DNA of 51,919 nucleotides from Laspinema palackyanum D2a (lineage in GTDB: Bacteria > Cyanobacteriota > Cyanobacteriia > Cyanobacteriales > Laspinemataceae): positions 1-51,919 of the forward strand of contig JAMXFF010000052.1 in NCBI GenBank assembly GCA_025370845.1. The letters run 5' to 3'. A program made the position numbers and the translations under genes. The notes beneath the pieces were generated by a model, which ran no database searches, was not told the origin of the DNA, and was given only the letters and a program-made list of their open reading frames with translations. How positions within the stretch are numbered: position 1 is the first letter of the stretch; the number at the start of each line of letters is the position of its first letter. Positions 9,755 to 44,500 of the stretch are shown here, piece by piece.

Positions 9755-9814
9755 AGCCTTTAATGAGAATAATTGCGCTGCAACCGGCCAATTCAATATA
9801 AGAAATTCATCGAG

Positions 9815-10873
9815 ATGGGTAAAAAGAGATTATTGAAACTGGCGAGTTTATGTCTGGCGATCGCTGCGACTGCTTGTGGGGGGACATCGGGTCAACCCAA
9901 TGGAACTGTTGCCACGGGTTCGCAGAAGTTGGCTCAAATTCAAAATCAGGGTCAGATTGTCTGTGGAGTCAGTGGCGAGTTACCGGGATTTAGTTTTGTC
10001 GATGCCACCGGCAAATATGCGGGACTCGATGTGGATATCTGTCGGGCGATCGCTGCCGCGATTTTTGACGACCCCGACGCGGTAGAATTCCGCAATCTCA
10101 ACGCGAAAGAACGCTTTACCGCAGTGAAAAGTGGGGAAGTTGATATCCTCAGTCGGAATACCACCTGGACCCTCAGCCGGGATACGGGGGCCGTGGGGTT
10201 GCAATTTGCCCCCGTCGTCTTCTATGACGGACAAGGGATTATGGTTCAGAAAAATAGCGGGATTACCAATCTTGCGGGACTGAAGGATAAAGCAATTTGC
10301 ACCCAAACGGGAACGACTAACGAGCAAAATGTCGCCGATCGCATGGCAAGTCTGGGCATTAATTATCAGCTTGTGGTGTTTGAAGATATTAACGTCGCCT
10401 ATGCTACCTATCTTCAGGGTCGGTGCCAAGCGGTGACGTCCGATCGCTCTCAATTAGTCTCGCGGCGATCGCGATTTCCTAACCCTGAACAACATTTAAT
10501 TTTAGAAGAAACCATTTCTAAAGAACCCCTCGCCCCAGCAGTGGGACCCGGAGATCCAAACTGGTCCGATGTGGTGAATTGGATTATTTATACCACAATT
10601 TATGCCGAAGAACTCGGGATTACCTCCGAAAATGTCGAGGAAATGGTTAATAGTTCTAATCCCGAAATTACCCGATTTTTGGGAACAGAAGGTAATCTAG
10701 GCCAAGAATTAGGATTGACCAATGATTTTGCCCTGCGCGTGATTCGCCATGTGGGAAACTATGGCGAAATTTATAATCGCAATTTAGGGCCAGAAACGCC
10801 TCTCAATCTTGAGCGGGGATTAAATCGATTATCGACTCAGGGCGGGTTGATGTATTCACCACCCTTTCGCTAA
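9815..10873 (+). CDS. natF: Amino-acid ABC transporter substrate-binding lipoprotein (NatF/AapJ type)
   Basis: The 352-residue periplasmic binding protein has a lipoprotein signal: positively charged GKKR, a hydrophobic stretch, then Cys21 in ATAC-GG (a slightly loose lipobox). The mature part is a bacterial extracellular solute-binding family 3 domain. Typical features are VCGVSGELPGFSF, YAGLDVDICRAIAAAIF, SGEVDILSRNTTWTLSRD and a TGTTNEQNVAD segment of the kind seen in AapJ/BztA/NatF proteins for acidic and polar amino acids. The ATG at 9815 is preferred over an upstream TTG because the signal peptide starts there. It is the first gene of a co-directional cluster with two permeases and an ATPase. 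The symbol follows the Anabaena Nat-II naming by family resemblance. Confidence 0.88.
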   Translation: MGKKRLLKLASLCLAIAATACGGTSGQPNGTVATGSQKLAQIQNQGQIVCGVSGELPGFSFVDATGKYAGLDVDICRAIAAAIFDDPDAVEFRNLNAKERFTAVKSGEVDILSRNTTWTLSRDTGAVGLQFAPVVFYDGQGIMVQKNSGITNLAGLKDKAICTQTGTTNEQNVADRMASLGINYQLVVFEDINVAYATYLQGRCQAVTSDRSQLVSRRSRFPNPEQHLILEETISKEPLAPAVGPGDPNWSDVVNWIIYTTIYAEELGITSENVEEMVNSSNPEITRFLGTEGNLGQELGLTNDFALRVIRHVGNYGEIYNRNLGPETPLNLERGLNRLSTQGGLMYSPPFR

Positions 10874-10924: not shown

Positions 10925-11890
10925 ATGGGATTGGGTCTATTAATTGATGGGAAATGGTTAACGGAACGGGAACAGGAAGATGGTGGCGGTCGATTTATTC
11001 GTCCTTCTACCACCTTTCGGAATTGGATTCCTGCCGATAAATCGAGTAAATATCCCGCAGTGGCAGGACGGTATCATCTGTATGTGTCCTTAGCTTGTCC
11101 TTGGGCCCATCGGACTCTAGTTATGCGGTCCTTGAAAGGCTTGGAAGAAGCCATTAGTCTCTCGGTAGTTTCGCCGGTAATTGACCAAAATAGTTGGGAA
11201 TTTGCCGAGTATCCGGGGATGATTCCCGATACGGTAAATCACTGCGATTATTTATGGCAACTGTATCTTAAAGCGGATAAAAATTACAGTGGAAGAGTGA
11301 CAGTGCCGGTTTTGTGGGATAAAGAAACCCAGCAAATTGTCAACAATGAATCTCGGGAAATTATCCGAATGTTGGATACGGAATTTGAGGGAATTGCCGA
11401 AAATTCTATTGACTTATATCCAAAGGATTTGCAAGAGGTCATTGATAAAACCATAGATGAGATTTATCAACCGATTAATAATGGAGTGTATCGGGCTGGA
11501 TTTGCCACAACTCAGGCAGCGTATGAGGAAGGGGTTACGGATTTATTTGATGCCTTGGACCACTGGGAAGGGATTCTGGGAAAACAGCGCTATTTATGTG
11601 GCGATCGCCTAACAGAAGCGGATATTTGTATGTTTACCACCCTGGTGCGATTTGACCCGGTTTATTATGTGCATTTCAAATGTAATATCCGGCGAATTGT
11701 AGATTATCCTAATTTATGGAATTATCTCAAGGAATTGTATCAACATCCGGGAATCAAATCCACCTGCAATTTTGACCATATTAAGCAGCATTATTATCGC
11801 AGTCATCCGAAAGTAAATCCCACGGGAATTGTTCCCAAAGGACCGATAATTAATTGGGATGAACCGCACGATCGCAGTCGGTTTGGGTAA
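10925..11890 (+). CDS. Xi-class glutathione transferase / glutathionyl-hydroquinone reductase-like
   Basis: The 321-residue protein of the YqjG/PcpF family carries the xi-class signature SLACPWAHRT with catalytic Cys58 in a CPWA motif. A glutathione-binding VPVLW (126-130) and NNES (139-142) follow. The C-terminal all-helical domain contains LCGDRLTEADICMFTTLVRFDPVYYVHFKCN, which is very characteristic of the group. Known members reduce glutathionyl-hydroquinones. A link to quinone or oxidative stress is possible, but the substrate here is unknown. The ribosome site TAGGAGATAAAACC precedes the ATG. The gene sits between the binding protein and permease genes of an amino-acid ABC transporter (51 and 30 nt gaps), an unexpected position. 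Confidence 0.93.
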   Translation: MGLGLLIDGKWLTEREQEDGGGRFIRPSTTFRNWIPADKSSKYPAVAGRYHLYVSLACPWAHRTLVMRSLKGLEEAISLSVVSPVIDQNSWEFAEYPGMIPDTVNHCDYLWQLYLKADKNYSGRVTVPVLWDKETQQIVNNESREIIRMLDTEFEGIAENSIDLYPKDLQEVIDKTIDEIYQPINNGVYRAGFATTQAAYEEGVTDLFDALDHWEGILGKQRYLCGDRLTEADICMFTTLVRFDPVYYVHFKCNIRRIVDYPNLWNYLKELYQHPGIKSTCNFDHIKQHYYRSHPKVNPTGIVPKGPIINWDEPHDRSRFG

Positions 11891-11920: not shown

Positions 11921-12883
11921 ATGAGAAGATTGTGGCGCGATCGCCGATTTTGGTTTATTGCCATCCAAGCTGTCGCCGTTGTCTTAATTGCGATATTAGG
12001 GTTAACCCTTTGGCAAAACTTGCAGCGAAATTTACAGCAACAAGGCATGAGTCTGGGATTTGATTTTTTAGAATCTCAAGCAGCGTTTGATATTGGCGAA
12101 ACCCTGATTCCCTACGAACGAAGTTCTACCTACGCGAGAGCTTTATTAGTAGGATTACTCAACTCCTTACGAGTGATGGCGGTGGGAATTATCCTAGCAA
12201 CGGTAGTCGGGATTACCGTGGGAGTCGGGCGATTGTGGGATAATTGGCTATTAAGAAAACTTTCGTTACTATATGTAGAAATTATCCGCAATACGCCTTT
12301 ATTGCTGCAATTATTTTTCTGGTATTCAGCAGTTTTTTTGAGTTTGCCTGGACTCCAAGATGTCATAAAATTACCGGGAAGAATTTATTTAAGTCAACAA
12401 GTTGTTGCCTTTCCCCTGCCTTGGACGATACCCGAAGTGCTGGAGAGTGGACAAATTATGGGGGGATTACAACTGTCTCCAGAATTATCCGCCTTGGTGC
12501 TAGGATTGAGTCTTTATACGGCGGCATTTATTGCAGAAATTGTGCGCGCCGGGATTCAATCGGTGCCAAAAGGACAGTGGGAAGCAGCAAAATCCCTGGG
12601 TTTAAATCCCAGTTTAATGTTGCGCTTGGTGATTTTTCCCCAAGCGTTGCGAACGATGATCCCCTCTCTGACGAGTCAATATCTGAATTTAGCGAAAAAT
12701 ACCAGTTTAGCCATTGCGATCGGTTATCCGGATATTTATTTTGTTGCCTCCACCACGTTTAATCAAACGGGACGGGCGGTGGAAGTGATGATTCTGTTGA
12801 TGGCAACCTATTTGACCATTAGTTTATTAATTTCCCTGTTTCTGAATTTTTACAACAAAAAAGTTCAACTGAAAGAACGCTAG
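11921..12883 (+). CDS. natG: Amino-acid ABC transporter permease (NatG/AapQ type)
   Basis: The 320-residue inner-membrane permease has an N-terminal helix (11-32), a long periplasmic loop with FDIGETLIPYERSSTYARALLVGLLNSLRV, and a His/Glu/Gln/Arg/opine-type permease core. The EAA loop that docks on the ATPase is visible as GQWEAAKSLGL followed by IFPQALRTMIPS. The IPYE segment before the core is typical of the AapQ/BztB/NatG branch. It should form a heterodimer with the permease at 13077. A ribosome site GAGTTGAGGGG precedes the ATG. The next permease gene is 193 bp downstream, separated by a REP-like element. Confidence 0.92.
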   Translation: MRRLWRDRRFWFIAIQAVAVVLIAILGLTLWQNLQRNLQQQGMSLGFDFLESQAAFDIGETLIPYERSSTYARALLVGLLNSLRVMAVGIILATVVGITVGVGRLWDNWLLRKLSLLYVEIIRNTPLLLQLFFWYSAVFLSLPGLQDVIKLPGRIYLSQQVVAFPLPWTIPEVLESGQIMGGLQLSPELSALVLGLSLYTAAFIAEIVRAGIQSVPKGQWEAAKSLGLNPSLMLRLVIFPQALRTMIPSLTSQYLNLAKNTSLAIAIGYPDIYFVASTTFNQTGRAVEVMILLMATYLTISLLISLFLNFYNKKVQLKER

Positions 12884-12932: not shown

Positions 12933-13005
12933 GATCCCCCTAAATCCCCCTTAAAAAGGGGGACTTTCTAGGTCCCCCCCTTTTTAAGGGGGGTTAGGGG
13001 GGATC
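12933..13005. repeat. REP-like paired palindromes between permease genes
   Basis: Two inverted arms, 12933-12962 and 12974-13005, each contain a core of the CCCCCTTAAAAAGGGGG type and end in GATCCCCC / GGGGGGATC. The pair could fold into one long hairpin within the transporter transcript. Short ATGAAGT / ACTTCAT repeats lie just outside (about 12918 and 13016). The same core recurs at 20787-20816. Confidence 0.75.
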
Positions 13006-13076: not shown

Positions 13077-14120
13077 ATGGATAGCAAAGCCGAACTCCCA
13101 CCGATTACGCCCAAACTTTCTCCCTGGAATTGGGCTAGAAAAAATCTGTTTAATACTTGGTACAACAGCATTCTGACAGTGATTTGTCTGGGGTTGATTT
13201 ATCAGCTAGGGGGTGGATTGCTGCATTGGGCGATCGCCTTGGCAGATTGGCAAGTCATTGGGGTCAACTGGCGGTTGTTTTTAGTCGGAAGATATCCCCC
13301 CCAACTCTATTGGCGCGTGGGAATGGCAACGGGAGTAATTGCTGGCGCTGCTGCTTTTTCTTTCTGGGCAATCCGGTGGCGTTCCCGGTGGGTTCAATGG
13401 ATTCCTTTGGCGTGGATTTTAGCATTTCCCCTGATTCTCTGGTTCATTGGTGGGGGATTGGGACTGCGACAGGTTCAGACTCAGTTATGGAATGGATTAT
13501 TACTCACCCTGGTAACGGCAATTGTTAGTATTGTCTTGTCATTTCCCGCCGGAGTTTTGTTAGCATTAGGACGACAAAGTTCTCTCCCGGTGTTGCGCTG
13601 GTTGTGCATTCTCTATATTGAAATTGTCCGGGGATTACCATTAATTGGGATTTTGTTTATGGCGCAGGTGATGTTACCGTTGTTTTTGCCCGTGGAGATG
13701 CGTCTCGATCGCGTCATGCGGGCGATCGCTGGGTTGAGTCTGTTTAGTGCCGCTTACATGGCAGAAAATGTCCGAGGGGGTTTGCAATCTGTCCCTCGCG
13801 GACAAATTGAAGCAGCACAAGCGTTGGGATTGGCAACCCCTTGGGTGGTTTCGCTGATTGTCTTACCCCAAGCATTACGCGCCGTGATTCCCGCCATTGT
13901 GGGGCAGTTTATTGGATTATTTAAAGACACCTCTTTACTGGCGCTGGTGGGTTTAGTAGAATTAACAGGGATGGCGCGATCGATTCTGGCTCAACCTGAA
14001 TTTATCGGGGACTACGCGGAAGTCTACATTTTTGTGGGTTTAATTTACTGGGTTTTCTGCTATGGAATGTCCCTTGCCAGTCGCCGATTAGAGCAAAAAT
14101 TAGCCCGGGGGAAATCCTAA
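13077..14120 (+). CDS. natH: Amino-acid ABC transporter permease (NatH/AapM type)
   Basis: The 347-residue permease has extra N-terminal membrane segments compared with NatG, as in AapM/BztC/NatH. A segment GGLGLRQVQTQLWNGLLLTL leads into the transport core. The EAA loop is GQIEAAQALGL with VLPQALRAVIPAIVGQFIGLFKDTSL. It should pair with the permease at 11921 and the ATPase at 14744 to import amino acids across the plasma membrane. The start ATG at 13077 has only a weak ribosome site. Another methionine is not available nearby, so this start is likely. Confidence 0.92.
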   Translation: MDSKAELPPITPKLSPWNWARKNLFNTWYNSILTVICLGLIYQLGGGLLHWAIALADWQVIGVNWRLFLVGRYPPQLYWRVGMATGVIAGAAAFSFWAIRWRSRWVQWIPLAWILAFPLILWFIGGGLGLRQVQTQLWNGLLLTLVTAIVSIVLSFPAGVLLALGRQSSLPVLRWLCILYIEIVRGLPLIGILFMAQVMLPLFLPVEMRLDRVMRAIAGLSLFSAAYMAENVRGGLQSVPRGQIEAAQALGLATPWVVSLIVLPQALRAVIPAIVGQFIGLFKDTSLLALVGLVELTGMARSILAQPEFIGDYAEVYIFVGLIYWVFCYGMSLASRRLEQKLARGKS

Positions 14121-14226
14121 AGGCGATCGCCTGCTCAAACCCGCTAATTTTCTCTATGATAAAGAAATAGGCAAGTTTTTGGATAAACCCCTTGTCTCAT
14201 TCATTTAAACACCCTAATTTTTATTT

Positions 14227-14721
14227 ATGACTGATTCAAGCTTGCGAAAGGTGGCTGACCGTTTAGCGAAAACCTTAACCCAGGATTTATTAATTCAACA
14301 AACCACATCTGAACTAAGAGAAGCTCTTAATGTTAATCGAATTTTATTATATTACTTTTATTCCCCTTGGAAAGGACAAGTCACCTTTGAAGCAGTGAGC
14401 GCACCTCAATTTTCTGTTATTGGACAAAGTGGACCGGACCAATGTTTTGGAGATGAATATGCCGCTTTATATTTGCAAGGACGAGTCCGGGCAATTTCTA
14501 ACATTGAAACGGAACCGATTAACGAGTGCCATCGAGAGTTTCTGAAAACCCTCCAAGTTCAAGCTAATTTAGTAGTTCCGATTCTTTCCCCGATTGGATT
14601 ATGGGGATTGCTCGTAGCTCATCACTGCGAAGATACCAGATTGTGGTCTTTAGATGATATCAAACGGATGAAAAATGCCGCAGACACTTTAGGAACTGCT
14701 GCCACAATTCGAGATAGTTAA
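14227..14721 (+). CDS. Stand-alone GAF protein with DXCF cyanobacteriochrome motifs
   Basis: The 164-residue protein is a single GAF domain. It contains DQCF at 71-74, matching the DXCF motif whose Cys forms the second bilin linkage in violet/blue-absorbing cyanobacteriochromes. It also has ECHREFL with Cys101-His102, the canonical bilin-attachment Cys-His, followed by VQANLVVPIL and LWGLLVAHHC, both typical of this subfamily. There is no output domain. If it binds a bilin it would be a minimal photoreceptor; otherwise it is a degenerate relative used as a ligand sensor. It lies 106 bp after natH and 22 bp before the transporter ATPase gene, so it probably shares their transcript. No other sensor or regulator gene is in the cluster. 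Confidence 0.82.
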   Translation: MTDSSLRKVADRLAKTLTQDLLIQQTTSELREALNVNRILLYYFYSPWKGQVTFEAVSAPQFSVIGQSGPDQCFGDEYAALYLQGRVRAISNIETEPINECHREFLKTLQVQANLVVPILSPIGLWGLLVAHHCEDTRLWSLDDIKRMKNAADTLGTAATIRDS

Positions 14722-14743: not shown

Positions 14744-15487
14744 ATGACCCTAGATAAACAGCCCATTATTATTGCCAAAGATGTCCAGAAATGGTATGGA
14801 CAGTATCACGCCTTACGCGGCGTTAGTCTAACTATTGAACCCGGAGAAGTCGTGGTGATTATGGGTCCATCGGGTTCGGGTAAATCAACCTTTATCCGGA
14901 CCTTTAATGCACTAGAAGACTATCAAAAAGGACGGATTGAAATTGATGGCATTGAACTCTCCAACGACTTGAAGAATATTGATAATATTCGCCGGGAAGT
15001 GGGGATGGTTTTTCAGCAGTTTAATCTCTTCCCACACCTCACCGTCTTGCAAAATGTGACCTTAGCCCCCAAATGGGTGCGTCGATGGTCTAAGGTGAAG
15101 GCAGAGGAAGTGGGGATGCAGTTATTGGAACGGGTGGGAATCCTGGAACAAGCGCGGAAATATCCAGGACAGTTATCTGGAGGACAGCAACAACGAGTGG
15201 CGATCGCCCGCGCCTTGGCAATGCAACCGAAAATCATGCTGTTTGATGAACCCACCTCCGCCTTAGACCCAGAAATGGTCCGAGAAGTCCTAGAAGTGAT
15301 GCGGGATTTGGCAACCTCTGGGATGACAATGGTTGTGGTAACTCATGAAGTCGGATTTGCCCGAGAAGTGGCCGATCGCGTGGTGTTTATGGATGCTGGA
15401 AGTGTCGTCGAAGTGGCAACCCCCACCAACTTTTTCCAAAATCCCCAAGAAGAACGAACCCGTCAATTTTTGTCCCAAATTTTATAG
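14744..15487 (+). CDS. Amino-acid ABC transporter ATP-binding protein (AapP/BgtA type)
   Basis: The 247-residue ATPase energises the permeases encoded just upstream. The ABC motifs are intact: Walker [10 protein letters not shown] (41-49), Q-loop [17 protein letters not shown], signature LSGGQQQR (144-151), Walker [14 protein letters not shown] with Asp168-Glu169, and switch His201 in VVVTHE. Polar amino-acid importers of the GlnQ/AapP group have this pattern. In Anabaena the equivalent BgtA is encoded elsewhere and shared by two transporters. Here it is in the cluster, 22 nt after the GAF gene. Confidence 0.95.
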
Positions 15488-26110: not shown

Positions 26111-26681
26111 TGCAGTCGCCGATCGCTCCTGGGGATCCATCCGGTTTGGGTTGTCAGCCCGATCGCCTAAGTCTCCTGGGAATTGTGCCCTGGGGGAGCA
26201 ACTTCGGTGCGATCGCCTATTTCTCCGCTTCCCTCTCATGGTTTGGCCTTTTTGATGTTTTTTATCTTAGCTGATTATAAGCGCGATCGCTATAGTCTCT
26301 TCGCGGTTTGTCTGATATTAAATCACCCTCTCAATATCCCTTAGTTTAGTTGGGGTTTTTCTTGGGTTTGGGTGTCGGGACTGCATCTATCTCGCGCCCC
26401 AGCTAGAGAGTTTCTACCATAAAGGACCTTAACAAGTCCCCATCCCAGTGCAGTTTAAAAAAACATTATGGGTTAGAGTTGAGGAAGAGAAAACTCGGAG
26501 CTGAACGCCAGTTTGCTGGACCTAGTAAAAATTCCGTATTTTTACAGTAGTAAAAAAGCCGCAATTAGGCTATCTAGCGGATATAAAATAAACCGCGTTT
26601 ATTAGAAGCTTCAGAGTAATCTGAGCGCCCACTTAATTCTTGATCCCCGTACCGAGATGTCGCGCATCTCCTCCTTCAGCC
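26111..26681. other. Gene-free region upstream of the large sensor kinase
   Basis: About 570 bases with HIP1-like sites but no credible frame. The last 120 bases are AT-rich and contain TATAAAATA near 26580, which could hold the sensor kinase promoter. Confidence 0.4.
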
Positions 26682-29600
26682 ATGCCCATCACCGAACCTG
26701 CCATCCATGCCCTCAATTTAGAAGCGGCGATCGCCCATACTCCGATCTGCGTTCCGCCCCATACCCCGGTGAACGAGGTCCTAGAACAGATGAATCGGGT
26801 CAAATCGACTTCGTGCCGCCTCGAAGACAGTGCTTCAAGCCCCCTCAATTTACAAACCCTCTCCAGTTGTGCCGTTGTCCAAGAGAACGACAAATTTTTA
26901 GGCATCTTTGTTGAGCGGGATCTGGTCAAATTGATTGCCTCGGGCAAATCTCTCGAAGGGATCACCGTGGGAGAACTGATCAATCCCTCACCGGTCTCGG
27001 TACGTCAATCCCAATTGCAAGATATTTTTTCTGTACTGCCCCTATTGCGGCAATATCATATTTCCCATTTACCCATTCTGGATGAAGGCGATCGCTTCAT
27101 AGGTTTGATCAGCACGGAAACCCTTCGGGAAATCCTGCAACCGTCGAATCTGTTGCAATTACGACAGGTTGCCGAAGTGATGACTCCCCAGATTGTCAGC
27201 GCCACACCCCAGACTTCTTTACTGGATATTGCCAAACTGATGACCCGCACCCAAGTCAGTTGCGTGATGATTTGCCAGAGGGGAGACGGAAAAATCACTC
27301 AGATTGGGACCGGAAACCGAGGAGATCTCAAGCCCCTGGGCATCATTACGGAGGGAGATATTATCCAAATCCAGGGGCTCCAACTGGACCTCAGTAGCAC
27401 CCCCGTCCAGCAAATGATGAGTTCGCCGGTGTTTGCCATTGGTGCCGAGGATTCCTTGTGGATTGCTTTGCAGAAGATGCAGCAGCACCATGTGGGGCGA
27501 TTAGCCGTTACGGGCATCCGAGGAGAACTGCGGGGAATTATTACCCAAACGACCCTGCTCAACTCGATTAATCCCTTGGAAATCTACAAGGTGATTGACG
27601 TGATGCAGAATACGATTAGCGCATTGGAAGCTGAAAAGATAGAACTGCTGCAAAATCGGACCACGGAACTGGAAAAACAAGTGCGATCGCGCACGGCTGA
27701 ACAAGAGCAACTCATCGCCTCCCTGGAAGCCAGTAGCCAACGCGATCGCCTCCTGGCTAAAGTCTCCCTGCAAATTCGCAAATCCCTCAATCTTGACGAG
27801 ATTCTTGCCACCACCGTAGAAGAGGTGCGTCAGCTACTCCACTGCCATCGGGTTTTGGTGTACCAGTTTGCGCCGACAAGGGAGGGGAAAGTGGTAGCGG
27901 AATCGGTGGAGTCAGGGTATCCGGCGATTTTGGACATCCAGGTTCGGGATATCTGCTTTCAGCAAATGCATGGCATCGACTATCTGAACGGGCGCAACCA
28001 GGCGACTGCTGATATCCGTCAAGCCGGATTAAGCTTCTGCCATCAGGAGCTATTAGAGCATTTTCAGGTACGAGCCAGTCTCGGGGTCCCGATCGCCATT
28101 CAGGGAGACCCCGCTCACCCCCATCTCTGGGGCTTGCTGATTGCCCATCACTGCAATGAACCGCGACCCTGGCAGGCATCAGAAATTGATTTACTGGATA
28201 AAATTTCGGTGCATATTGCGATCGCCATCCACCAAGCCCAACTTTACCAAGATACTCAACTGGAACTGGCTGAACGTCACCGGGTAGAAGCGGCCCTGCG
28301 TTCCAGCGAACAATTATATGCCACCTTAGCGGAAGCCTCTCCTGTGGGCATTTGGCGCACAGATCCCACAGGAAAATGTATTTACATCAACGATCGCGCT
28401 TGTGAAATGCTGGGTTTATCTCGACAAGCGGCCCTCGGTGACGGTTGGCTCCAATCTTTGCATCCCCAGGACCGCGCTCGTGTCATCGCAGAATGGGCCA
28501 AATCAACCCAATTCCACACCCCCTTTGCCTGCGAATATCGCTTTTGTCGTCCCAATGGGGAGGTGAGTTGGGTTTTTGGTCAAACTCTTGCTGAAATGGG
28601 CCCCGATGAAGAAGTGATGGGCTACATCGGGACGGCTACAGATATCAGCGATCGCAAACGAGCCGAACAAGCCCTAAAAACCTTGAATGCCGAACTCGAA
28701 AGGAGAGTCTCGAAGCGAACTGAGGAATTAGAACAAACCGTTCAACAATTACAGGGAGAAATCCAGCAACGACAGCAGGCACAACAAGAACTAATCCTAG
28801 TCAAAGAACGGCTGCAATATTTACTCTGGGTCAGCCCCACAATTATTTATAGCTGTCAAGTTCAATATCCCTACTCCACTACCTTTATTAGCTATAACGT
28901 CTTCCAGATTTTAGGATATGAACCCAAACAATTCCTGAATAATCCCCAATTTTGGTGGGATTGCATTCATCCGGAAGATCAGGAGCTTGTCGAGACTGGA
29001 TTTTCGCAGATCTGCGATCGCGAAAACCAGAGTCTGGAATACCGATTGCACCATGCTGAGGGCCGCTATATCTGGGTTCAGGACGATTTTCGCGTTGTCC
29101 GAAATGCTCAAGGTCAAGCCATAGAAATTGTCGGGTCTTGTGTTGATATTAGCGATCGCAAATTGGCCGAAAGTGAACTGCAAGAAAGCGAAGATCAACT
29201 CAGTAAATTTTTCGAGAGTGCCAACGATTTGATTCAAACCGTGGATGCTCAGGGAAAAATTCTCTATGTCAATCGTGCTTGGCGTGAAACCCTGGGCTAC
29301 AGCCCGGAAGAAGTGCAGCACCTCTTTGTGTCTGACATCATTCATCCCCACTGCAACCCGCGCTATCATCAACTCTTAAGCACCCTCAACGGAGACTGCA
29401 CTCAAACCGTCACCTTTGAACTTAAAGCGCTCAAAAGCAACGGGCGAGCTGTCTTCTTAGAAGGAAGACTCTCGTTGAAAAACGAGGGAAATCGCTCCAA
29501 AATTCACGGCGTATTTCGAGATATCACTCGACGAAAAATTGATGAATTAAAGCTACAAAGACAAGCGGAAGTTTTACAAACTATTTTTGACAATCTTCCC

Positions 29601-31820
29601 CTGATGCTGGTATTTTTTGATGGTCAAGGTCAAATCCAGCTTCTGAATACAGCCCTAGAAAAAACCCTGGGTTGGTCCTTGGCAGAAGCGCAAGCACAAG
29701 ATACCTTTGTGCAGTGCTATCCCGACCCGGAAGAACGCCAAAAGATCCTAGATGGCATAGAGGCAGGAACAGGGGAGTGGATTGAGGTCAAAGCCAGAAC
29801 CCGTCAGGGGAGAGAGCTAGAGGCCGCTTGGGCGAATATCCGCCTCTCTGATGGCAGTGGGATTGGCATTGGGCAGGATATCACCGAACGGAAGCGATCA
29901 GAAGCCGCCTTGCGCCACAGTGAGCAGTTATTCCGTTCCACCTTTAATGGGGCTACCATCGGACTGGTTCATAGCGATATCAAGAGTCAGTTTCTGCGAG
30001 TCAACCAAAAATACTGTGAAATTCTCGGCTATTCTCAAGAAGAATTGCTGCTTAAAAATTGCATGGATATTACTCATCCCGATGATGTGGAGAAGAATAT
30101 TCAGTGTCTGAAGCCGCTGCTCAGGGGAGAGGCTCGCGAGTGTTCCTTTGAGAAACGGTATTATCGGCAGGATGGGTCAATCATTTGGGCGTCTCTAACG
30201 GTATCCCTCGTGCGTCAACCCTCGGGAGAACCAGACTATTTTATTGCCGCTGTGGAAGATATTACCGATCGCAAAAAAGCGGAAGCTGAAAAAGAAAAAC
30301 GCGATCGCTATCTGACTGCCTTAGTCGAAATTCAACATCAATTATTAAATTCCTCCGTAGATACGGACCTCTACGAAATCGTTCTGAGGATTCTAGGACC
30401 CGTCTCCGGTGCCAGTCGCCTCTATATTTTTGAAAATTCCCACGATTCCCAAGGCTGTTTACTCACCAGTCAAAAAGCGGAATGGTGCGCCGAGGGGATT
30501 GAGTCCCAACAAAACAATCCCAACTTGCAAAATTGCCCCTACGAAGAATTTTTCACGCGACTGCCCAATACCCTGGGGAAAGGGGAAATCATTGAAGGCA
30601 TCGTCTCTAATTTTGCAGACTCCGAACGCTTAGTTTTAGAACCCCAAGGGATTGAAGCCATTCTGTTGTTACCCCTGATGGTTAATGGGGACTTTTTTGG
30701 CTTTATCGGTTTTGATAACTGCAAGGAAGCCCAACCTTGGGACCCGTTAGAAGTCAGTTTATTAAGTTCCGCAGCAGCGGCGATCGCCCTAGCAAAAGAA
30801 CGTCAAATCACCCAAGCCGCCCTCGCCCGTCAGTTGGCTGCGGTAGAAGCCGCTACTGATGGCATCGGCATTCTCAATGAAAACAGTGAATACATTTATT
30901 TGAATTCCGCTCATGCCAAAATATTTGGATATGACGACCCCAAAGAGTTGCTGAATAAAAGCTGGAAAGAGTTATACCATCCCCCAGAGATTCACCAAAT
31001 AGAACAGGAAGTTTTTCCAGTCCTGGGGGCATCGGGACAATGGAGTGGAGAAACCTTGGCCAAAAGACGAGATGGCACGACCTTTCCGGAAGAAATATCC
31101 CTCACCTATATTGCTGGGGGGGGATTAATTTGCGTGGCTCGGGATATTACGACTCGTAAACAATCCGAGGAACAAATTAAAGCCTCCCTTCATGAAAAAG
31201 AGGTATTGCTCAAAGAAATTCACCATCGGGTCAAAAATAACCTGCAAATTATCCACAGTTTATTGAAACTGCAATCCAGCTACACGAAAGACCCCCTCAC
31301 TTTGCAAATGTTCCGGGATAGCCAAAATCGCATCCGGTCGATGGCCTTGATTCACGAACTATTATATCGCTCCACTAACTTAGGCAGCATTAATTTTTCG
31401 GAATACATCAACCAGTTAACCACGAATTTATTTCGAGCCTATAATATAACCGCTCATTCTCGGCCCGAAATTCTCATTAATGTAGAGCCGATTCAACTGG
31501 GAATTGATACAGCGATTCCTTGTGGTCTAACCATTAATGAGTTAATCACCAATGCCTTTAAATATGCATTTGTCGATGGGTTATCTGGTACAATTAGCAT
31601 TGATTTTCATAAAGACGGAGCTGACACCTACGAACTAAAAATTTCTGACAATGGGGTAGGATTTCCTGCTGACTTAGATTTCCGAAATACTGAATCCCTA
31701 GGGTTGAAATTAGTGTGTAACCTCACCCGGCAACTGGATGGAGAAATCACCCTCGATCGCAGTCAAGGAACCTGCTTCACGATTAGATTTCAAGAATTAA
31801 CTTACCAACCTAGAGGATAA
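26682..31820 (+). CDS. Multi-sensor histidine kinase: CBS x4, DXCF-type GAF, PAS x6, GAF, HisKA_2
   Basis: The 1712-residue sensor has domains in this order: CBS pairs (about 30-136 and 163-303), coiled coil, GAF 1 (366-520), PAS 1 (545-660), coiled coil, PAS 2-5 (711-1199), GAF 2 (1221-1373), PAS 6 (1386-1493), HisKA_2 with EIHHRVKNNLQ (His1514/His1515) and HATPase (to about 1706) with NELITNAFKYAF and DNGVGF. GAF 1 carries DICF (423-426) and FCHQELL (Cys453-His454), the two cysteine motifs of DXCF cyanobacteriochromes, so light input is likely. CBS pairs usually bind adenine nucleotides. There are no transmembrane segments. ATG 26682 is preferred over an in-frame TTG at 26640. A receiver-kinase gene begins 4 nt after its stop. 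Confidence 0.92.
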   Translation: MPITEPAIHALNLEAAIAHTPICVPPHTPVNEVLEQMNRVKSTSCRLEDSASSPLNLQTLSSCAVVQENDKFLGIFVERDLVKLIASGKSLEGITVGELINPSPVSVRQSQLQDIFSVLPLLRQYHISHLPILDEGDRFIGLISTETLREILQPSNLLQLRQVAEVMTPQIVSATPQTSLLDIAKLMTRTQVSCVMICQRGDGKITQIGTGNRGDLKPLGIITEGDIIQIQGLQLDLSSTPVQQMMSSPVFAIGAEDSLWIALQKMQQHHVGRLAVTGIRGELRGIITQTTLLNSINPLEIYKVIDVMQNTISALEAEKIELLQNRTTELEKQVRSRTAEQEQLIASLEASSQRDRLLAKVSLQIRKSLNLDEILATTVEEVRQLLHCHRVLVYQFAPTREGKVVAESVESGYPAILDIQVRDICFQQMHGIDYLNGRNQATADIRQAGLSFCHQELLEHFQVRASLGVPIAIQGDPAHPHLWGLLIAHHCNEPRPWQASEIDLLDKISVHIAIAIHQAQLYQDTQLELAERHRVEAALRSSEQLYATLAEASPVGIWRTDPTGKCIYINDRACEMLGLSRQAALGDGWLQSLHPQDRARVIAEWAKSTQFHTPFACEYRFCRPNGEVSWVFGQTLAEMGPDEEVMGYIGTATDISDRKRAEQALKTLNAELERRVSKRTEELEQTVQQLQGEIQQRQQAQQELILVKERLQYLLWVSPTIIYSCQVQYPYSTTFISYNVFQILGYEPKQFLNNPQFWWDCIHPEDQELVETGFSQICDRENQSLEYRLHHAEGRYIWVQDDFRVVRNAQGQAIEIVGSCVDISDRKLAESELQESEDQLSKFFESANDLIQTVDAQGKILYVNRAWRETLGYSPEEVQHLFVSDIIHPHCNPRYHQLLSTLNGDCTQTVTFELKALKSNGRAVFLEGRLSLKNEGNRSKIHGVFRDITRRKIDELKLQRQAEVLQTIFDNLPLMLVFFDGQGQIQLLNTALEKTLGWSLAEAQAQDTFVQCYPDPEERQKILDGIEAGTGEWIEVKARTRQGRELEAAWANIRLSDGSGIGIGQDITERKRSEAALRHSEQLFRSTFNGATIGLVHSDIKSQFLRVNQKYCEILGYSQEELLLKNCMDITHPDDVEKNIQCLKPLLRGEARECSFEKRYYRQDGSIIWASLTVSLVRQPSGEPDYFIAAVEDITDRKKAEAEKEKRDRYLTALVEIQHQLLNSSVDTDLYEIVLRILGPVSGASRLYIFENSHDSQGCLLTSQKAEWCAEGIESQQNNPNLQNCPYEEFFTRLPNTLGKGEIIEGIVSNFADSERLVLEPQGIEAILLLPLMVNGDFFGFIGFDNCKEAQPWDPLEVSLLSSAAAAIALAKERQITQAALARQLAAVEAATDGIGILNENSEYIYLNSAHAKIFGYDDPKELLNKSWKELYHPPEIHQIEQEVFPVLGASGQWSGETLAKRRDGTTFPEEISLTYIAGGGLICVARDITTRKQSEEQIKASLHEKEVLLKEIHHRVKNNLQIIHSLLKLQSSYTKDPLTLQMFRDSQNRIRSMALIHELLYRSTNLGSINFSEYINQLTTNLFRAYNITAHSRPEILINVEPIQLGIDTAIPCGLTINELITNAFKYAFVDGLSGTISIDFHKDGADTYELKISDNGVGFPADLDFRNTESLGLKLVCNLTRQLDGEITLDRSQGTCFTIRFQELTYQPRG

Positions 31821-36044: not shown

Positions 36045-39000
36045 TCAATCCCCGGCCTTCTGCTTGAGCACCAGTAAGGTGATATCATCATAAACTTTTT
36101 GTTGACCAATATATCCCTTAACATCAGAAATCACCGCCTCTTGGATTTCCGAAGCAGATTTGTGATAGTTTTCCTGGACTACCGCAATTAACCGTTCTAA
36201 TCCATATTCTTGCTGGTCCAGATTCCATGCTTCGGTAATTCCATCGGTGTAGAGGACCACCACATCCCCGGGATTTAACTCGATGCGGGCGGTGGTGACA
36301 AACTCGGCTATTTCTTCCACCATTGCGATGGGAAATCCTAAATCAATCGTATCAATTCGTTCCACTTTTCCCTGCGCTCGCACCACAATGACTTCTTCAT
36401 GTTGTCCGCTAATTTGCAAGACCCCATCGGCATAATCTAACAGGGCTAAGGTCATGGTTTTATCACAATTCATCCGTTGAGCATTCTGATAAATCGTGCG
36501 ATTCAGGACATCTAAAAATTCCTGGGGATTCGTAAAATTCCCTTCTAACAAACTCCGGACCACGGTTTGGGCCATAATCATCAACACCCCACTTTCTAAC
36601 CCATGTCCCGTCACATCCCCGATGCCAATTTTCACCCGGTCCTGATATTGCAGCACATCATAATAATCCCCGCCGACTTCCTCCGCAGGTTCCATAAATC
36701 CCGCAATATCTAACCCAGAAATCCCATTCAGTTCCGCCTGTTTGGGTAAAATCATTTGTTGCAGACGACGGGTAACATCTAACTCCGCTGCCATGCGAAG
36801 ATTATCCGCTTTGAGACGCTCATTCAGAATGGTAATTTCCGCATTCGCTTGGGCCAATTCAGCGGTGCGTTCCTCGACTTTTTGTTCCAAGGTACGGTAC
36901 AGGAGGGCATTTTCTAGGGAAATAGCTGCTTGGGAGGCTAAAACTTGCAGGACTTCGAGGCGATCGCCTGTAAAGGCATCGGTGGTTAAGTTATTTTCAA
37001 AATAGAGAATTCCCGTCAGTTTCCCTTGATGACGAATTGTTGTACAAAGTACCGATTTCGGTTGATGGTTTAGAATATAGGGGTCTTGGGTAAACAGTCC
37101 TTCCCTTGTGGCATTATTTAACACCACATCAGACTGAGTTTTGGCGACATAATTGACAATCGCCGAGGAAATTTCCTCGCATTCTTCTACGGGAATCGAT
37201 TGCAAGACTATCCTTTTTTCCCCAGAAACCACCGCTGCTTCAACGGTTAAGCGGTCTTCGGTTTGTAAAATCAAAAAAGCTTTAGATGCACCGGCATTCT
37301 CTTGGAGAATTAAAATTAACTTCTCCAACATTTTGCTGAGGACAATTTCGCTAGAAAATGCTTCCGAGGCTTTGATTACCGTAAACAAATCCAGGGAACT
37401 GGCGCGACTGCTGCCTGTGGAGGAGTTAACGGTTTGGAATGAATCAATTGATGAAGCGGATGGACTCGCCCTGCGTAAAACTTGAGGATAGTTAGTTTCT
37501 AACTGTTGAACCTTGGCATCGGCACCCCATTTTTGATAATTATAAGCGGCTTCTCGGATATAAACCTTGCCGATTTCATCCCATCCTTTGCGGAAATAAA
37601 ACTGTGCCGCTAGTTCATTGGCAAGGGCTTCATTTTGAGTAAATCCTGATTCTTTTGCCTGGGCGATCGCCTGCCGATAAAGCTCCATTGCTTCCAGTTC
37701 TTTTCCGGAAATTCGCGCCATTTCAGCGGAGACCAACAGGAATTTATCCTGGTAATTTTCCGGGCAGTTTTCCGCCCAAATTTGGAGTTTTTGCTGCTGT
37801 TGTTCCAGAATCGGCCAATACTCCTGTTGCTCGGTTTCCGATGCCGTGGGATAAACCGCTGCTAACACCAACCCATAATAAAATGGATGTTTCGTTTGGT
37901 AATAAAACCCAAAGTTAGCCGGAACGAGGGGTTCCGCTTCCCGACAGATGGCGAGGGCTTCCTCATAGTGTCCAAACGTATATAAAACCTGGGTTTTTAA
38001 ATAATGGTACCAGTTCAACCCAACGAGTAAATTTACTTCCCGCCACAACCGCAATCCCTCCACTTCATCAAACTCATTCTTAATCCCCTGAAACTGCTTG
38101 ATCACGTGCTGTAAATTCAGGCAAACGTACAGCATACTCTGATAATTGCTGTGGCGAATGATGAGGATAAATTTATCAGCTTCCTTGGCAATTTCTGGCA
38201 GACTGTCCCCAATTTCCAACCGCGTCCAGAGTTTCAAGAATAAAGCCCATACTCCATAGACGACATCCCCGACAGACCGGCAAATTAAGTGAGAGCGGTC
38301 ATAGAAGGGCAGATTAGTCATAAAGGGTTTTCGGTACGGATTGACGGCACTACAAAACAAATTAATTACCTTGCCGCTCCAGATGGGAGTCTTGGATTTT
38401 TCCAGCAGTTTTAAGGCGACTTCTCCAAATTCATATCCAGTTTTATAGTCGTTTTGGAGTCCCAGCATCAATCCGTAAGCTGAGTAAGCAAAGGCCGATG
38501 TATCGGTATGACCAAAGGTTAAGGAAAGCCGAGTCATGGTTAACACACACCAGCCATTATAATTGAGGTAATGTTCACTAAATGGAGCTCCCCAAAAGTT
38601 GGCTAGTAGGGTCATGCAGACCTGTTTTTCCGGGTCTTTCATCGGGGGTCGATGCAGGAGATCAGCAATATTAACTCCCGTCAGATTGGCTTGCACTTCC
38701 TGCATTTGGATGGCGATCGCCTCTTGCAATTCCTCCTCGGTTTCCGGGACATCTAACCCCATCAGCTTCATCCCCGCTAATCCCGCTTGCACCGATTCGA
38801 AGAATCGCTCCCTGATGGGAGACAGCAGCACAATCACGTTATAAATTTCCGCCCGTTCAAATTTATTAACAACTCGCTCTAATAAAATGCTAAATAGCTC
38901 GTCAGCCCCTTGAAAATTACCGGCTACATACTCACATTCCGCCAGTTCTCGATACACCGTAAAAGTCAGGGTATAACCTGTATCCCAAGCAGTTTCTGGC

Positions 39001-41396
39001 AGCAAAGACCGGGCGATCGCCAAATGCTTGACCGCCGCTTGATAGGCCGTAGAAGCTTTGGCTTTTTTGCCCGCCAGACTATTCAATCGAGCGACTTCTA
39101 ATTTTAACTCAGGGTCAACAATCGACTCTAGGCCCGCATTCAAATGGGTAACAATGTCAAAGATTTTAGACTCTAACTCCTCAGCAGCCGTGTGACTGAG
39201 CATTAACTGGCCAATCCGTAAGTGGGTATTAGACCGTTCCGATTCCGGAATTAAAGAGTAGGCCGCCTGTTGGACCCGATCATGTATAAATTTATATTCT
39301 ATACTAAGATCGCTCTCTTCTAAAAAGGTGGCAGTTTCTTCACTACTTTCCGGTAAAAAGCTGTGATTTTTGCTGGAAAATATGAATCCTTCTCGCACTG
39401 CAGGCCACAAATCTCGGGCCACTGCAATCTGGGACTGTTCCCGGACCACCGCCAAAGTTTTCAAATCAAAACTATTCCCAATACAAGCGGCGATCTTCAA
39501 ACTTTCCTGAACCTTTGGGGTAAGTTTTTGAATCTTCTGGGTCATTAATTCGACCACATTATCCGTCATCCCCACCGCTTGAATTTGGTCCATTTCCCAG
39601 GACCATTCCCCCTGGCTCTCCCCATCAGGAAATCGAAACGTTAACAGGTTACTGTCATAAAGCGATTTGAGCAACTGGTTGATAAAAAATGGATTGCCTT
39701 GGGTCTTTTGGGCAATTAACTCAGCTAGAGGCAAACTTTTCGTGACAGAACAGTGCAGGGTATCTGCAATCAATTGATTGATATCTTCTAACTTCAGCGC
39801 TTGCAGTTCAATCTGATTGATAATAGCTCCCTGTCCCTCCATCTCCTCGACTGCCGAGATTAACGGATGAGCCGCATCTACTTCATTATCTCGATAGGCC
39901 CCAATAATCAGTAAAGCCTGACTTTCCGAAGCAGTTGCCAATCGTTGAATCAGTTTCAAAGAAGCCAAATCTACCCACTGCAAATCATCCAGAAATAAAA
40001 CGAGGGGGTGTTCTTTTTGGGCAAAAACTGCAATAAACTTTTGAAACAATAAATTAAATCGGTTTTGCGTTGCCGTTGGCGGCAGTTCAGGAACCTCCGG
40101 CTGTTCGCCAATCAGTAACTCTAATTCCGGAATCACATCGGTGATCACCTGTCCTTCTGTTCCTAACGCTTCGATAATCCGCTGTTGCCAACGCTCTAAT
40201 CGTTCCGGGGTTTCCGTTAAAATTTGGCGAATCAGATTTTGGAACGCTTGAATCAGGGATTGATAAGGGATATCTCGGTTGAATTGGTCAAATTTTCCTG
40301 AGATAAAATAGCCCCGTTGTTGGGCGATGGGTTTGTGAATTTCTTGAACAATCACCGATTTGCCAATCCCGGAAAACCCTGACACTAACATCAGTTCAAT
40401 TCCCGGTGAATTAGGTTCTGAAGGTTCGGCATTTTGGGCGGTTCCGCTGACTCGTCCAAAGGCCGACATTAAAGCCTCAATTTCCCCTACTCTACCGTAA
40501 AGTTTCTGAGAGATTTGGAATTTGTCCGAGGTATCCTGTTCTCCAGGGGTAAACCACTCAATTTTACCCGTTTCTTGCCATTGCTTCCAGCATTTTTCTA
40601 AATCATAGCTTAACCCATACCCACTTTGATACCGATCTTCTGCCGTTTTTGACACCAATTTCATCACAATTGCACTGACAACTGGAGGAATTTGGGGATT
40701 AACTTGATGGGGGGGAATCGGCTGTTTGGCAATGTGAGCATGAACCATTTCTACCGGGTCCGTTGTGGGAAAGGGTAGTTCCCCGGTGAGCATTTTATAA
40801 AACGTGATTCCCAGAGAATAGAAGTCCGTGCGGTAGTCAATGGAGCGATTCATCCGCCCAGTTTGTTCCGGGGACATATAAGCTAGAGTTCCTTCGAGTA
40901 AATTCGGATTACTCAAGGTTTGGTGGGAGCGTTCCAGGCGAGTAGAAATGCCAAAATCGATTAAGGTCACTCGGAATGGATCGAGATTAACCACAATATT
41001 TTGCGGCTTAATATCTAAATGAATAATCGAGTGTTTATGGAGTTCTCCCAAACTTTTGGTAACGGGAATCGCGATTTTAAAAAAGGTTTCTAAGTTTAGG
41101 GGTTGAGTAGACAGCAGTTGTTCTACGGTCAAAGGGCCCGCATCTTCCATGATGAAGACCAGACTCCTACCCCAGCTTTCTAGGCTTAAAGGCTTAACAA
41201 CGCCAGGGATATCTAACGACTTGACAACTTCATATTGATGTCGGAATTTAGCAATTTCTGTCGGGGTAGGATATTCAGTTTTTAAGAGTTTGAGAATTTC
41301 CGTCTGCGCTTGGCCTTCTTTGCGGCCTCGGCAAACAATCGTCTGAGTTCTTTCATGAATTTCTTCGACGATTTCATAACCCGCAAAAAATAGCAT
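36045..41396 (-). CDS. Ser/Thr kinase-STAND ATPase-TPR-GAF-PP2C protein (copy 1)
   Basis: The 1783-residue protein has a Ser/Thr kinase domain (1-270), a AAA/STAND ATPase (about 300-560), a long helical/TPR-like region to about 1330, GAF (1334-1498), coiled coil and a SpoIIE-type PP2C phosphatase (about 1550-1780). Kinase motifs include HLDIKPQN at 126-133 (Leu replacing Arg of HRD) and DFG at 147-149; the glycine loop is degenerate. The ATPase has Walker A GFSGIGKS (340-347) and Walker B LVLFLDD (465-471). The phosphatase carries EVGGDYYD, GDVTGHG and LYTDGITEA. An AAGGAA site precedes the ATG. It is a tandem paralogue of 41514-46880. Confidence 0.93.
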   Translation of the reverse strand: MLFFAGYEIVEEIHERTQTIVCRGRKEGQAQTEILKLLKTEYPTPTEIAKFRHQYEVVKSLDIPGVVKPLSLESWGRSLVFIMEDAGPLTVEQLLSTQPLNLETFFKIAIPVTKSLGELHKHSIIHLDIKPQNIVVNLDPFRVTLIDFGISTRLERSHQTLSNPNLLEGTLAYMSPEQTGRMNRSIDYRTDFYSLGITFYKMLTGELPFPTTDPVEMVHAHIAKQPIPPHQVNPQIPPVVSAIVMKLVSKTAEDRYQSGYGLSYDLEKCWKQWQETGKIEWFTPGEQDTSDKFQISQKLYGRVGEIEALMSAFGRVSGTAQNAEPSEPNSPGIELMLVSGFSGIGKSVIVQEIHKPIAQQRGYFISGKFDQFNRDIPYQSLIQAFQNLIRQILTETPERLERWQQRIIEALGTEGQVITDVIPELELLIGEQPEVPELPPTATQNRFNLLFQKFIAVFAQKEHPLVLFLDDLQWVDLASLKLIQRLATASESQALLIIGAYRDNEVDAAHPLISAVEEMEGQGAIINQIELQALKLEDINQLIADTLHCSVTKSLPLAELIAQKTQGNPFFINQLLKSLYDSNLLTFRFPDGESQGEWSWEMDQIQAVGMTDNVVELMTQKIQKLTPKVQESLKIAACIGNSFDLKTLAVVREQSQIAVARDLWPAVREGFIFSSKNHSFLPESSEETATFLEESDLSIEYKFIHDRVQQAAYSLIPESERSNTHLRIGQLMLSHTAAEELESKIFDIVTHLNAGLESIVDPELKLEVARLNSLAGKKAKASTAYQAAVKHLAIARSLLPETAWDTGYTLTFTVYRELAECEYVAGNFQGADELFSILLERVVNKFERAEIYNVIVLLSPIRERFFESVQAGLAGMKLMGLDVPETEEELQEAIAIQMQEVQANLTGVNIADLLHRPPMKDPEKQVCMTLLANFWGAPFSEHYLNYNGWCVLTMTRLSLTFGHTDTSAFAYSAYGLMLGLQNDYKTGYEFGEVALKLLEKSKTPIWSGKVINLFCSAVNPYRKPFMTNLPFYDRSHLICRSVGDVVYGVWALFLKLWTRLEIGDSLPEIAKEADKFILIIRHSNYQSMLYVCLNLQHVIKQFQGIKNEFDEVEGLRLWREVNLLVGLNWYHYLKTQVLYTFGHYEEALAICREAEPLVPANFGFYYQTKHPFYYGLVLAAVYPTASETEQQEYWPILEQQQQKLQIWAENCPENYQDKFLLVSAEMARISGKELEAMELYRQAIAQAKESGFTQNEALANELAAQFYFRKGWDEIGKVYIREAAYNYQKWGADAKVQQLETNYPQVLRRASPSASSIDSFQTVNSSTGSSRASSLDLFTVIKASEAFSSEIVLSKMLEKLILILQENAGASKAFLILQTEDRLTVEAAVVSGEKRIVLQSIPVEECEEISSAIVNYVAKTQSDVVLNNATREGLFTQDPYILNHQPKSVLCTTIRHQGKLTGILYFENNLTTDAFTGDRLEVLQVLASQAAISLENALLYRTLEQKVEERTAELAQANAEITILNERLKADNLRMAAELDVTRRLQQMILPKQAELNGISGLDIAGFMEPAEEVGGDYYDVLQYQDRVKIGIGDVTGHGLESGVLMIMAQTVVRSLLEGNFTNPQEFLDVLNRTIYQNAQRMNCDKTMTLALLDYADGVLQISGQHEEVIVVRAQGKVERIDTIDLGFPIAMVEEIAEFVTTARIELNPGDVVVLYTDGITEAWNLDQQEYGLERLIAVVQENYHKSASEIQEAVISDVKGYIGQQKVYDDITLLVLKQKAGD

Positions 41397-41513
41397 AATT
41401 TTTCCTTGTCAAGTTAGGTTGAGTGATTTTGCTATGGAAGTAAGATATCCGAGCTAAAATTAGGGTAACAGTTTTTGTGGAGACGGGGAGGAATTGCCTC
41501 CTAATCTACTTTG
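41397..41513. other. Spacer between the tandem copies
   Basis: The 117-bp spacer contains the upstream region of copy 1, with an alignable counterpart upstream of copy 2 (46881-46965): both read TTTTTCC, then TCAAGTTAG and TAACAGTTTTT. The duplication therefore included the promoter region. A small hairpin GGAGG-AATTG-CCTCC lies near 41490. Confidence 0.6.
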
Positions 41514-44500
41514 CTAAGACCTGGGTCCTATCCCCCCGGCCTTCTGCTTGAGTACCAGTAAGGTGATATCATCATAAACTTTTTGTTGTCCAATATAATC
41601 TTTAACATCTGCGATGACAGCCTGTTGGATTTGACTGGCGGATTTGTGGCAGTTGTGCTGGACGACCTCAATTAACCGTTCTAATCCGTATTGTTGCTGA
41701 TTCAGATTAAACGCTTCGGTAATTCCATCGGTGTAGAGCACCACCACATCCCCTGGATTTAACTCGATGCGGGCGGTGGTGACAAACTCGGCTATTTCTT
41801 CCACCATTGCGATGGGAAATCCTAAATCAATCGTATCAATTCGTTCCACGACTCCCTGCGCTCGCACCACGATGACTTCTTCATGTTGTCCACTGATTTG
41901 CAAAATACCATCAGCATAATCCAACAGCGCCAAAGTCATGGTTTTATCACAATTCATCCGTTGAGCATTCTGATAAATCGTGCGATTCAGGACATCTAAA
42001 AATTCCTGGGGGTCGGTAAAATTGCCTTCCAATAAGCTTCGGACCACGGTTTGGGCCATAATCATCAACACCCCACTTTCTAACCCATGTCCCGTCACAT
42101 CCCCGATGCCAATTTTCACCCGGTCCTGATATTGCAGCACATCATAATAATCGCCGCCGACTTCTTCCGCTGGTTCCATAAATCCCGCAATATCTAACCC
42201 AGAAATCCCATTCAGTTCCGCCTGTTTGGGTAAAATCATTTGTTGCAGGCGACGGGTAACATCTAACTCCGCTGCCATGCGAAGATTATCCGCTTTGAGA
42301 CGCTCATTCAGAATGGTAATTTCCGCATTCGCTTGGGCCAATTCAGCGGTGCGTTCCTCGACTTTTTGTTCCAAGGTACGGTACAGCAGGGCATTTTCTA
42401 GGGAAATAGCTGCTTGGGAGGCTAAAACTTGCAGGACTTCGAGGCGATCGCCTGTAAAGGCATCGGTGGTTAAGTTATTTTCAAAATAAAGAATTCCCGT
42501 CAGTTTCCCTTGATGACGAATTGTTGTACAAAGTACCGATTTCGGTTGATGGTTTAGAATATATGGGTCTTGGGTAAACAGTCCTTCCCTTGTGGCATTA
42601 TTTAACACCACATCAGACTGAGTTTTGGCGACATAATTGACAATCGCCGAGGAAATTTCCTCGCATTCTTCTACGGGAATCGATTGCAGGACTATCCTTT
42701 TTTCCCCAGAAACCACCGCTGCTTCAACGGTTAAGCGGTCTTCGGTTTGTAAAATCAAAAAAGCTTTAGATGCACCGGCATTCTCTTGGAGAATTAGAAT
42801 TAACTTCTCCAACATTTTGCTGAGGACAATTTCGCTAGAAAATGCTTCCGAGGCTTTGATTACCGTAAACAAATCCAGGGAACTGCCGCGACTGCTGCCT
42901 GTGGAGGAGTTAACGGTTTGGAATGAATCAATTGATGAAGCGGATGGACTCGCCCTGCGTAAAACTTGAGGATAGTTAGTTTCTAACTGTTGAACCTTGG
43001 CATCGGCGCCCCATTTTTGGTAATTATAAGCGGCTTCTCGGATATAAACCTTGCCGATTTCATCCCATCCTTTGCGGAAATAAAACTGTGCCGCTAGTTC
43101 ATTGGCGAGGGCTTCATTTTGAGTAAATCCTGATTCTTTTGCCTGGGCGATCGCCTGCCGATAAAGCTCCATTGCTTCCAGTTCTTTCCCAGAAATTCGC
43201 GCCATTTCAGCGGATACCAAGAGGAATCTATCTTGGTAATTTTCCGGGCAGTTTTCCGCCCAGATTTGGAGTTGTTGCTGCTGTTGTTCCAGAAGCGGCC
43301 AATACTCCTGTTGCTCGGTTTCCGATGCCGTGGGATAAACCGATGCTAACACCAACCCATAATAAAACGGATGTTTCGTTTGGGGAAAAAACCCAAAGTT
43401 AGCCGGAAAGAGGGGGGCCGCTTCCTGACAGATGGCGAGGGCTTCCTCATAGCGTTCAAAGGTATATAAAACCTGGGTTTTTAAATAATAGTACCAGTTC
43501 ACCCCACTGATTAAATTGCCCTCGCGCCACAACCGCAATCCTTCCGCTTCATCAAACTCGTTCTCAATCCCCTGAAACTGCTTGATCACGTGCTGCAAAT
43601 TAAGGCCAGCGTACACCATACTCTGATAATTGGTCTGGCGAATCGTAATCAGAGATTTCTCCGCTTCTTTCGCGATTTCTTGCAGACTATCCCCCATTTC
43701 TAAGCGGATCCAGAGCCTCAAAAATAAAGCCCATACCCCATAGATCACATCCCCAACGGACCGGCAAATGAAGTAAGAGCGGTCATATAGGGCCAGATTA
43801 GTCCGGAAGGGTTTCCGGTACGGATTGACCGCATTACAAAACAAATTAATCACCTTACCCCCAAAAATAGGAGTCTTGGATTTGTCCAGTAGTTTTAAGG
43901 CAACTTCTCCAAATTCATACCCGGTTTTATAGTGGTTTTGCAATGCCAGCATCAATCCATAAGCCGAGTAAGCAAACGCAGAAGTTTCCGCATTGCCAAA
44001 GGTTAAGGAAAGTCGGGTCATGCTTAACACACACCAGACATTATAATTGATGTAACCCCCACCAAATGAAGCCCCCCAGAAGTTGGCTAAGAGGGTCATG
44101 CAAACCTGTTTTTCCGGGTCTTCCATCGGGGGTCGGTGCAGGAGTTCAGCAATATTAACTTCGCTCAAATTGGCTTGGACTTCCTGCATTTGTAGGCCGA
44201 TCGCCTCTTGCAATTCCTCCTCAGTTTCGGGGACCTCCAACCCCATCAACTTCATCCCCGCTAATCCCGCTTGCACCGATTCTTGAAATCGCTCCTGGGT
44301 AATCGTCAGTAACACAATCAAATTATAAATTTCCGCTCGGTCAAATTTGTCAAGGACTCTCTCTAATAGGATAGTAAATAGCTGATCCGCCTCCTGAAAA
44401 TTTCCCGCTAAATACTCACATTCCGCCAGTTCACGATACAGGGTAAAGGTGAGTTTGTAAGCCGTATCCCAAGCAGTTTCTGGCAACAAAGACCGGGCGA

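Follow-up and report, generated by a model that had tools for sequence, protein, structure and literature searches.

Most work on cyanobacteriochromes treats them as modules that relay a signal through the chain to an output domain. A lineage that lacks an output domain, occurs mostly as one copy per genome and keeps both photochemical cysteines raises the question of which partner a lone light switch informs. Alr3356 of Anabaena/Nostoc 7120 is presumably a single-domain protein. It is described in PMC4788461 (citing Ma et al. 2012) as a photoreceptor of the cyanobacteriochrome family with a chromophore-binding GAF domain, and its gene is named there as a direct FurA target in Anabaena; alr3355 is given as ndhH (PMC8147232). 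In DXCF cyanobacteriochromes the second cysteine is reported to serve the photocycle and isomerisation (PMC11284453). The GAF domain of TePixJ comes from a methyl-accepting chemotaxis protein. The N-II amino-acid importer of Anabaena is described as natF, natG, natH and bgtA, with bgtA also serving the Bgt system (PMC4500139).

We analysed a window of 51,919 nt from Laspinema palackyanum D2a. It makes up the entire contig C71 of a genome of 7.41 Mb, in which there are 118 Pfam matches to GAF. The plus strand carries a cluster of genes for a natF-like amino-acid solute-binding protein (9773..10873, Pfam SBP_bac_3), a glutathione S-transferase (GST)-fold protein (10925..11890, Pfam GST_C_2 and GST_N_2), a natG-like amino-acid ABC permease (11921..12883), a natH-like amino-acid ABC permease (13077..14120, Pfam BPD_transp_1, with HEQRo_perm_3TM over its cut-off), a 164-aa GAF protein (14227..14721), a bgtA/GlnQ-like ABC ATPase (14744..15487, Pfam ABC_tran, with GlnQ as the best NCBIfam match but below its cut-off) and a SemiSWEET protein. 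The GAF gene is separated from the second permease gene by a 106-nt spacer (14121..14226) and from the ATPase gene by 22 nt. Its place between permease and ATPase, noted in the first-pass annotation, was confirmed, and the order is common to six of eight Laspinema genomes, including this one. In its kinds of parts the cluster resembles N-II, as outlined in the paper above, with a binding protein, two permeases and an ATPase, but differs from it by the GST-fold gene between binding protein and permease and by the solo GAF gene.

Identification of the GAF protein

The first-pass annotation had described a protein of 164 residues with a single GAF domain, a DQCF motif with Cys73, and Cys101-His102, and all of these were found in the open reading frame (ORF) at 14227-14721, which starts with ATG and lies in an open frame of 167 codons. 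Pfam detected the GAF domain with an E-value of 2.7e-14, with no output domain. The DQCF motif spans Asp71-Phe74 (14437..14448) with Cys73 as the second cysteine, and Cys101-His102 (14527..14532) is the putative canonical bilin ligand by its motif; in the alignment with TePixJ, the two sites correspond to its DPCF and ECH motifs. The top phmmer matches among PDB sequences were bilin-binding sensors, either cyanobacteriochrome GAFs or proteins derived from them (2.9e-24 for 6oap and 8e-20 for TePixJ, 3vv4). The predicted structure (pLDDT 88.4, pTM 0.86) had a fold matching bilin-binding cyanobacteriochromes, and model confidence was lowest in the DXCF loop (block pLDDT 63).

The protein therefore combines a GAF domain of the DXCF-cyanobacteriochrome type, the canonical Cys101-His102 and a second cysteine in DQCF. 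It shares the GAF fold, the second cysteine and the canonical CH pair with TePixJ and other DXCF cyanobacteriochromes, but in contrast to TePixJ its chain consists of one GAF only. The initial proposal of a single-GAF DXCF cyanobacteriochrome is supported by the Pfam result, the PDB-sequence matches and the predicted fold, and on these sequence-based comparisons the gene product is very probably a small, one-domain representative of the known violet/blue cyanobacteriochrome family.

Distribution and conservation of the solo lineage

A search with a profile built from solo proteins, in which at most nine candidates were scored per genome, found a solo copy in 57 of 386 genomes sampled across the phylum, including the genome of the window. 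Each of the 57 had one match of at least 208 bits in an open frame of 165-213 aa, while the next matches listed in the survey reached at most 177.5 bits in frames of at least 383 aa. Among the genome of the window and its relatives (39 genomes), 21 held stand-alone copies of at least 170 bits, and the next matches scored at most 136 bits and lay in long frames. The stand-alone form had initially been regarded as exceptional. This was not borne out, since the solo lineage is spread over these 57 genomes and Alr3356, a probable member, is already in print as a cyanobacteriochrome.

The loci behind the residue counts and neighbourhoods included the best 80 of at least 570 confirmed stretches from the locus search. 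Merging five duplicate pairs reduced the residue rows from 88 to 83, and one locus (L105), with its solo copy in two overlapping pieces and no intact ORF, was excluded from both analyses. The canonical cysteine was present in all 83 distinct solo members, followed by histidine in 82. The second cysteine was present in 81, so the two cysteines singled out in the first reading of the sequence are indeed conserved across the family. The deviants had Ser for the second cysteine (two members), CY for CH (one member) or lacked the Asp of DXCF (six members). Exact DXCF and CH motifs occurred together in 74/83 solo members, compared with 20/49 multi-domain GAF rows. Further residues, e.g., Tyr43, Tyr45, Thr53, Gly69, and Ile161, were fixed in the solo lineage and not in the multi-domain rows. 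At position 161, Ile was found in 75/83 solo rows and Gln in 45/49 multi-domain rows. The window protein ends three residues past this position and solo chains in general end near position 164 (Ser there in 58/83), whereas multi-domain chains run on.

In a tree using 45 of the 83 solo rows, a single branch with SH-aLRT 100 parted the 45 solo from 49 multi-domain GAFs, and the window protein fell in the same clade as the other solo proteins. The same split was obtained in a FastTree run, with a printed support of 0.159 after midpoint rooting. The multi-domain rows were chosen as nearest matches, excluding hits that covered fewer than 136 residues of the query or lay too close to the end of a locus; because of this choice, and because the profile was built from solo proteins, the contrasts between solo and multi-domain forms in the alignment and in the profile scores are somewhat sharpened. 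By sequence, the window protein is a member of a coherent lineage of solo DXCF cyanobacteriochromes that is found in many cyanobacteria.

Several copies stood out within this lineage. Among the best 80 of at least 570 stretches, Mastigocoleus testarum BC008 had two solo copies, one at L058:8001-8477 with DESF (Ser for the second cysteine) and one at L080:8001-8480 behind ndhH. A Dolichospermum/Anabaena subclade (L053, L061, L064, and L104) has Ser for the Asp of DXCF and keeps both cysteines. A contig labelled Candidatus Gracilibacteria also carries a solo cyanobacteriochrome (L040:8001-8471); this contig looks mis-binned, since its copy groups with that of a same-order genome (95/80). A plasmid search matched nine records, all below 60% identity and the best at 40% in a PAS domain protein, with no solo-lineage copy among them.

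Genomic neighbourhoods

Importer genes flanked the solo gene in two of 82 neighbourhoods, both from Laspinema (L039 and L148); the 82 retain three duplicate pairs from other genera (L086/L141, L095/L144, and L142/L143). The neighbours at the other 80 loci were lineage-bound. In heterocyst-forming genera they included a Methyltransf_28 protein (11 of 82 loci), ndhH (10), and glyoxalase (10), and the Nostocales solo gene often adjoins ndhH, methyltransferase or glyoxalase. At the ndhH loci, all from heterocyst-forming genera, ndhH was the nearest or next-nearest predicted gene upstream of the solo gene. In the Pseudanabaena group recO adjoins the solo gene in five loci (one recO member was scanned). 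Ten further neighbours that were scanned fell into unrelated families (eight) or into no family (two). No functional neighbour common to the solo lineage was found in the 82 loci. A member of the ATPase cluster lay within three genes of the solo gene in four of the 80 non-Laspinema loci (L056, L062, L090, and L133), and those of L056, L062 and L090 are taken to be other ABC proteins given their 30-36% identity to the window ATPase.

We searched eight genomes of other genera and two of Laspinema with the window permease. Three of the eight (G032, G014, and G016; loci L122, L123, and L124) contained an importer cluster of similar make-up in which no GAF gene separates permease and ATPase, and each had its solo gene elsewhere. 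The comparison of orthologous neighbourhoods proposed in the first-pass annotation thus found the importer setting in none of the other-genus loci examined, and the importer location of the GAF gene is best read as lineage-specific, confined to Laspinema among these loci. With importer flanks at Laspinema loci only, we rejected the idea that the protein is an importer subunit conserved across cyanobacteria. In the literature matches listed, no title or abstract opening placed a cyanobacteriochrome beside a transporter, a statement about those openings and not about print as a whole.

The number of the Alr3356 gene follows that of alr3355, ndhH, which matches the order of ndhH and solo gene at the ten loci above and differs from the importer setting in Laspinema. 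As judged from this neighbourhood and from the annotation in the papers cited for it, rather than from a sequence comparison, the solo lineage very probably includes Alr3356.

Selection and gene loss in Laspinema

The five other Laspinema copies with the same gene order were 91-93% identical to the window copy. The dN/dS of the GAF gene was 0.079-0.166 in all 15 pairs among the six copies, and ORF 14227-14721 is a real gene under constraint. The six copies formed one clade (100/99), with the same-family genome G009 as nearest branch (85/83). This grouping with a same-family genome speaks against gain from a distant donor, though its 85/83 support is below the starred level. Given a broad solo lineage and a narrow importer setting, we infer that the gene most probably entered the cluster within the Laspinema line. 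In G009, a single-contig genome, a natH-like permease gene broken by stops adjoins a 79%-identical GST gene (L125).

One Laspinema genome, G005, has lost the GAF gene. Its first nine codons run straight into the pre-ATPase spacer, in frame with the ATPase, and the rest of the gene is gone. The permease, ATPase and downstream genes are present in full or nearly so, with full-length frames for permease and ATPase. The assembly is 87% complete, yet the junction sits inside a contig, and in this genome the solo protein finds its best match within a frame of 709 codons. The permease and ATPase genes gave dN/dS of 0.025-0.102 in comparisons with G005, a constraint like that in the other genomes. The importer has thus been kept without the sensor, and this genome, together with the three of other genera, rules out that the importer is always accompanied by a GAF gene. 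With the remnant in frame (L119:2651-3439), translation of the G005 ATPase could begin at the former GAF start codon, adding a leader of 16 residues. Another Laspinema genome, G001, is uninformative on GAF loss, because the permease gene runs off the end of its contig and no ATPase reached the cut-off.

Transcription signals

In a simple scan the 106-nt spacer showed neither promoter-like nor terminator-like sites, on a background where site numbers in the whole scan were no higher than in shuffled sequence (3 against a mean of 4.9, and 3 against 3.3). An inverted repeat with 30-nt arms (12933..13005) lies between the two permease genes and overlaps a terminator-like site. A 29-nt exact piece of this repeat occurs once in its own genome, and the extra length is missing in four of the eight Laspinema genomes; the gap between the permease genes is only ~50 nt in G001, G003, G004, and G006. 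Co-transcription of the permease, GAF and ATPase genes is plausible.

Proposed function

The protein is probably a violet/blue photoswitch that acts in trans: a solo DXCF cyanobacteriochrome, which very probably belongs to the Alr3356 type and whose place in the importer cluster is specific to Laspinema. The GAF domain would take phycocyanobilin on Cys101, and the bilin may be isomerised to phycoviolobilin. Reversible addition of Cys73 to C10 would give a violet/blue-absorbing dark state with a green- or teal-absorbing photoproduct. The absence of an output domain, together with a chain that stops where its relatives continue, implies that the protein would have to signal in trans, and it could do so by light-dependent contact with a partner encoded at no fixed place. 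The GAF gene may share a transcript with permease and ATPase, and the importer can be kept without it.

The first-pass annotation had suggested a light-nutrient link through a sensor that shares a transcript with the importer and perhaps acts on its ATPase or permease. As a light-nutrient switch, such a sensor would bind one of these proteins and adjust amino-acid uptake according to the colour of light. The tight same-strand spacing of 106 and 22 nt, the gene order shared by the six Laspinema genomes and the spacer with no promoter-like or terminator-like site in the simple scan would all fit this. However, the arrangement was limited to Laspinema among the loci examined, the importer clusters of G032, G014 and G016 have no intervening GAF gene, with the solo gene elsewhere, and G005 keeps a full-length, constrained permease and ATPase with the GAF gene gone. 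We therefore regard this switch as unlikely, and the GAF gene did not hold up as a mark of a light-nutrient link. A link restricted to Laspinema is possible but not supported. In its most specific form, Laspinema would have recruited the output-less cyanobacteriochrome beside an N-II-like importer, the two would be co-expressed, and one photostate would bind the shared ATPase so that light colour gates the uptake of acidic and neutral amino acids, which we consider very unlikely. The persistence of the gene in the importer cluster in six Laspinema genomes could mean that place matters, and comparing the arrangement with the one genome where the gene was lost would allow this to be tested directly.

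The protein might instead be a bilin-binding GAF with a non-signalling role, e.g., holding or shielding bilin, with any photochemistry incidental. A solo protein without an output domain, widely kept as a small protein in the surveyed genomes, would be consistent with such a role, but the almost invariant second cysteine is one that PMC11284453 connects with photocycle and isomerisation, not simple attachment, and this role appears improbable. A trans-acting photoswitch of the Alr3356 type is the reading we prefer.

Other features of the window

Two adjacent genes on the minus strand (36045-46880) encode proteins of 1783 and 1788 aa that are 90% identical over 1782 positions, and the first has Ser/Thr kinase, AAA, GAF and SpoIIE phosphatase domains. 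Beyond about residue 1240 the two are nearly identical, a pattern suggestive of recent duplication or gene conversion. On the plus strand, 26640-31820 encodes a sensor kinase of 1726 aa that contains four CBS domains, two GAF domains and several PAS domains, and one of its GAF domains matches the solo protein at 36%.
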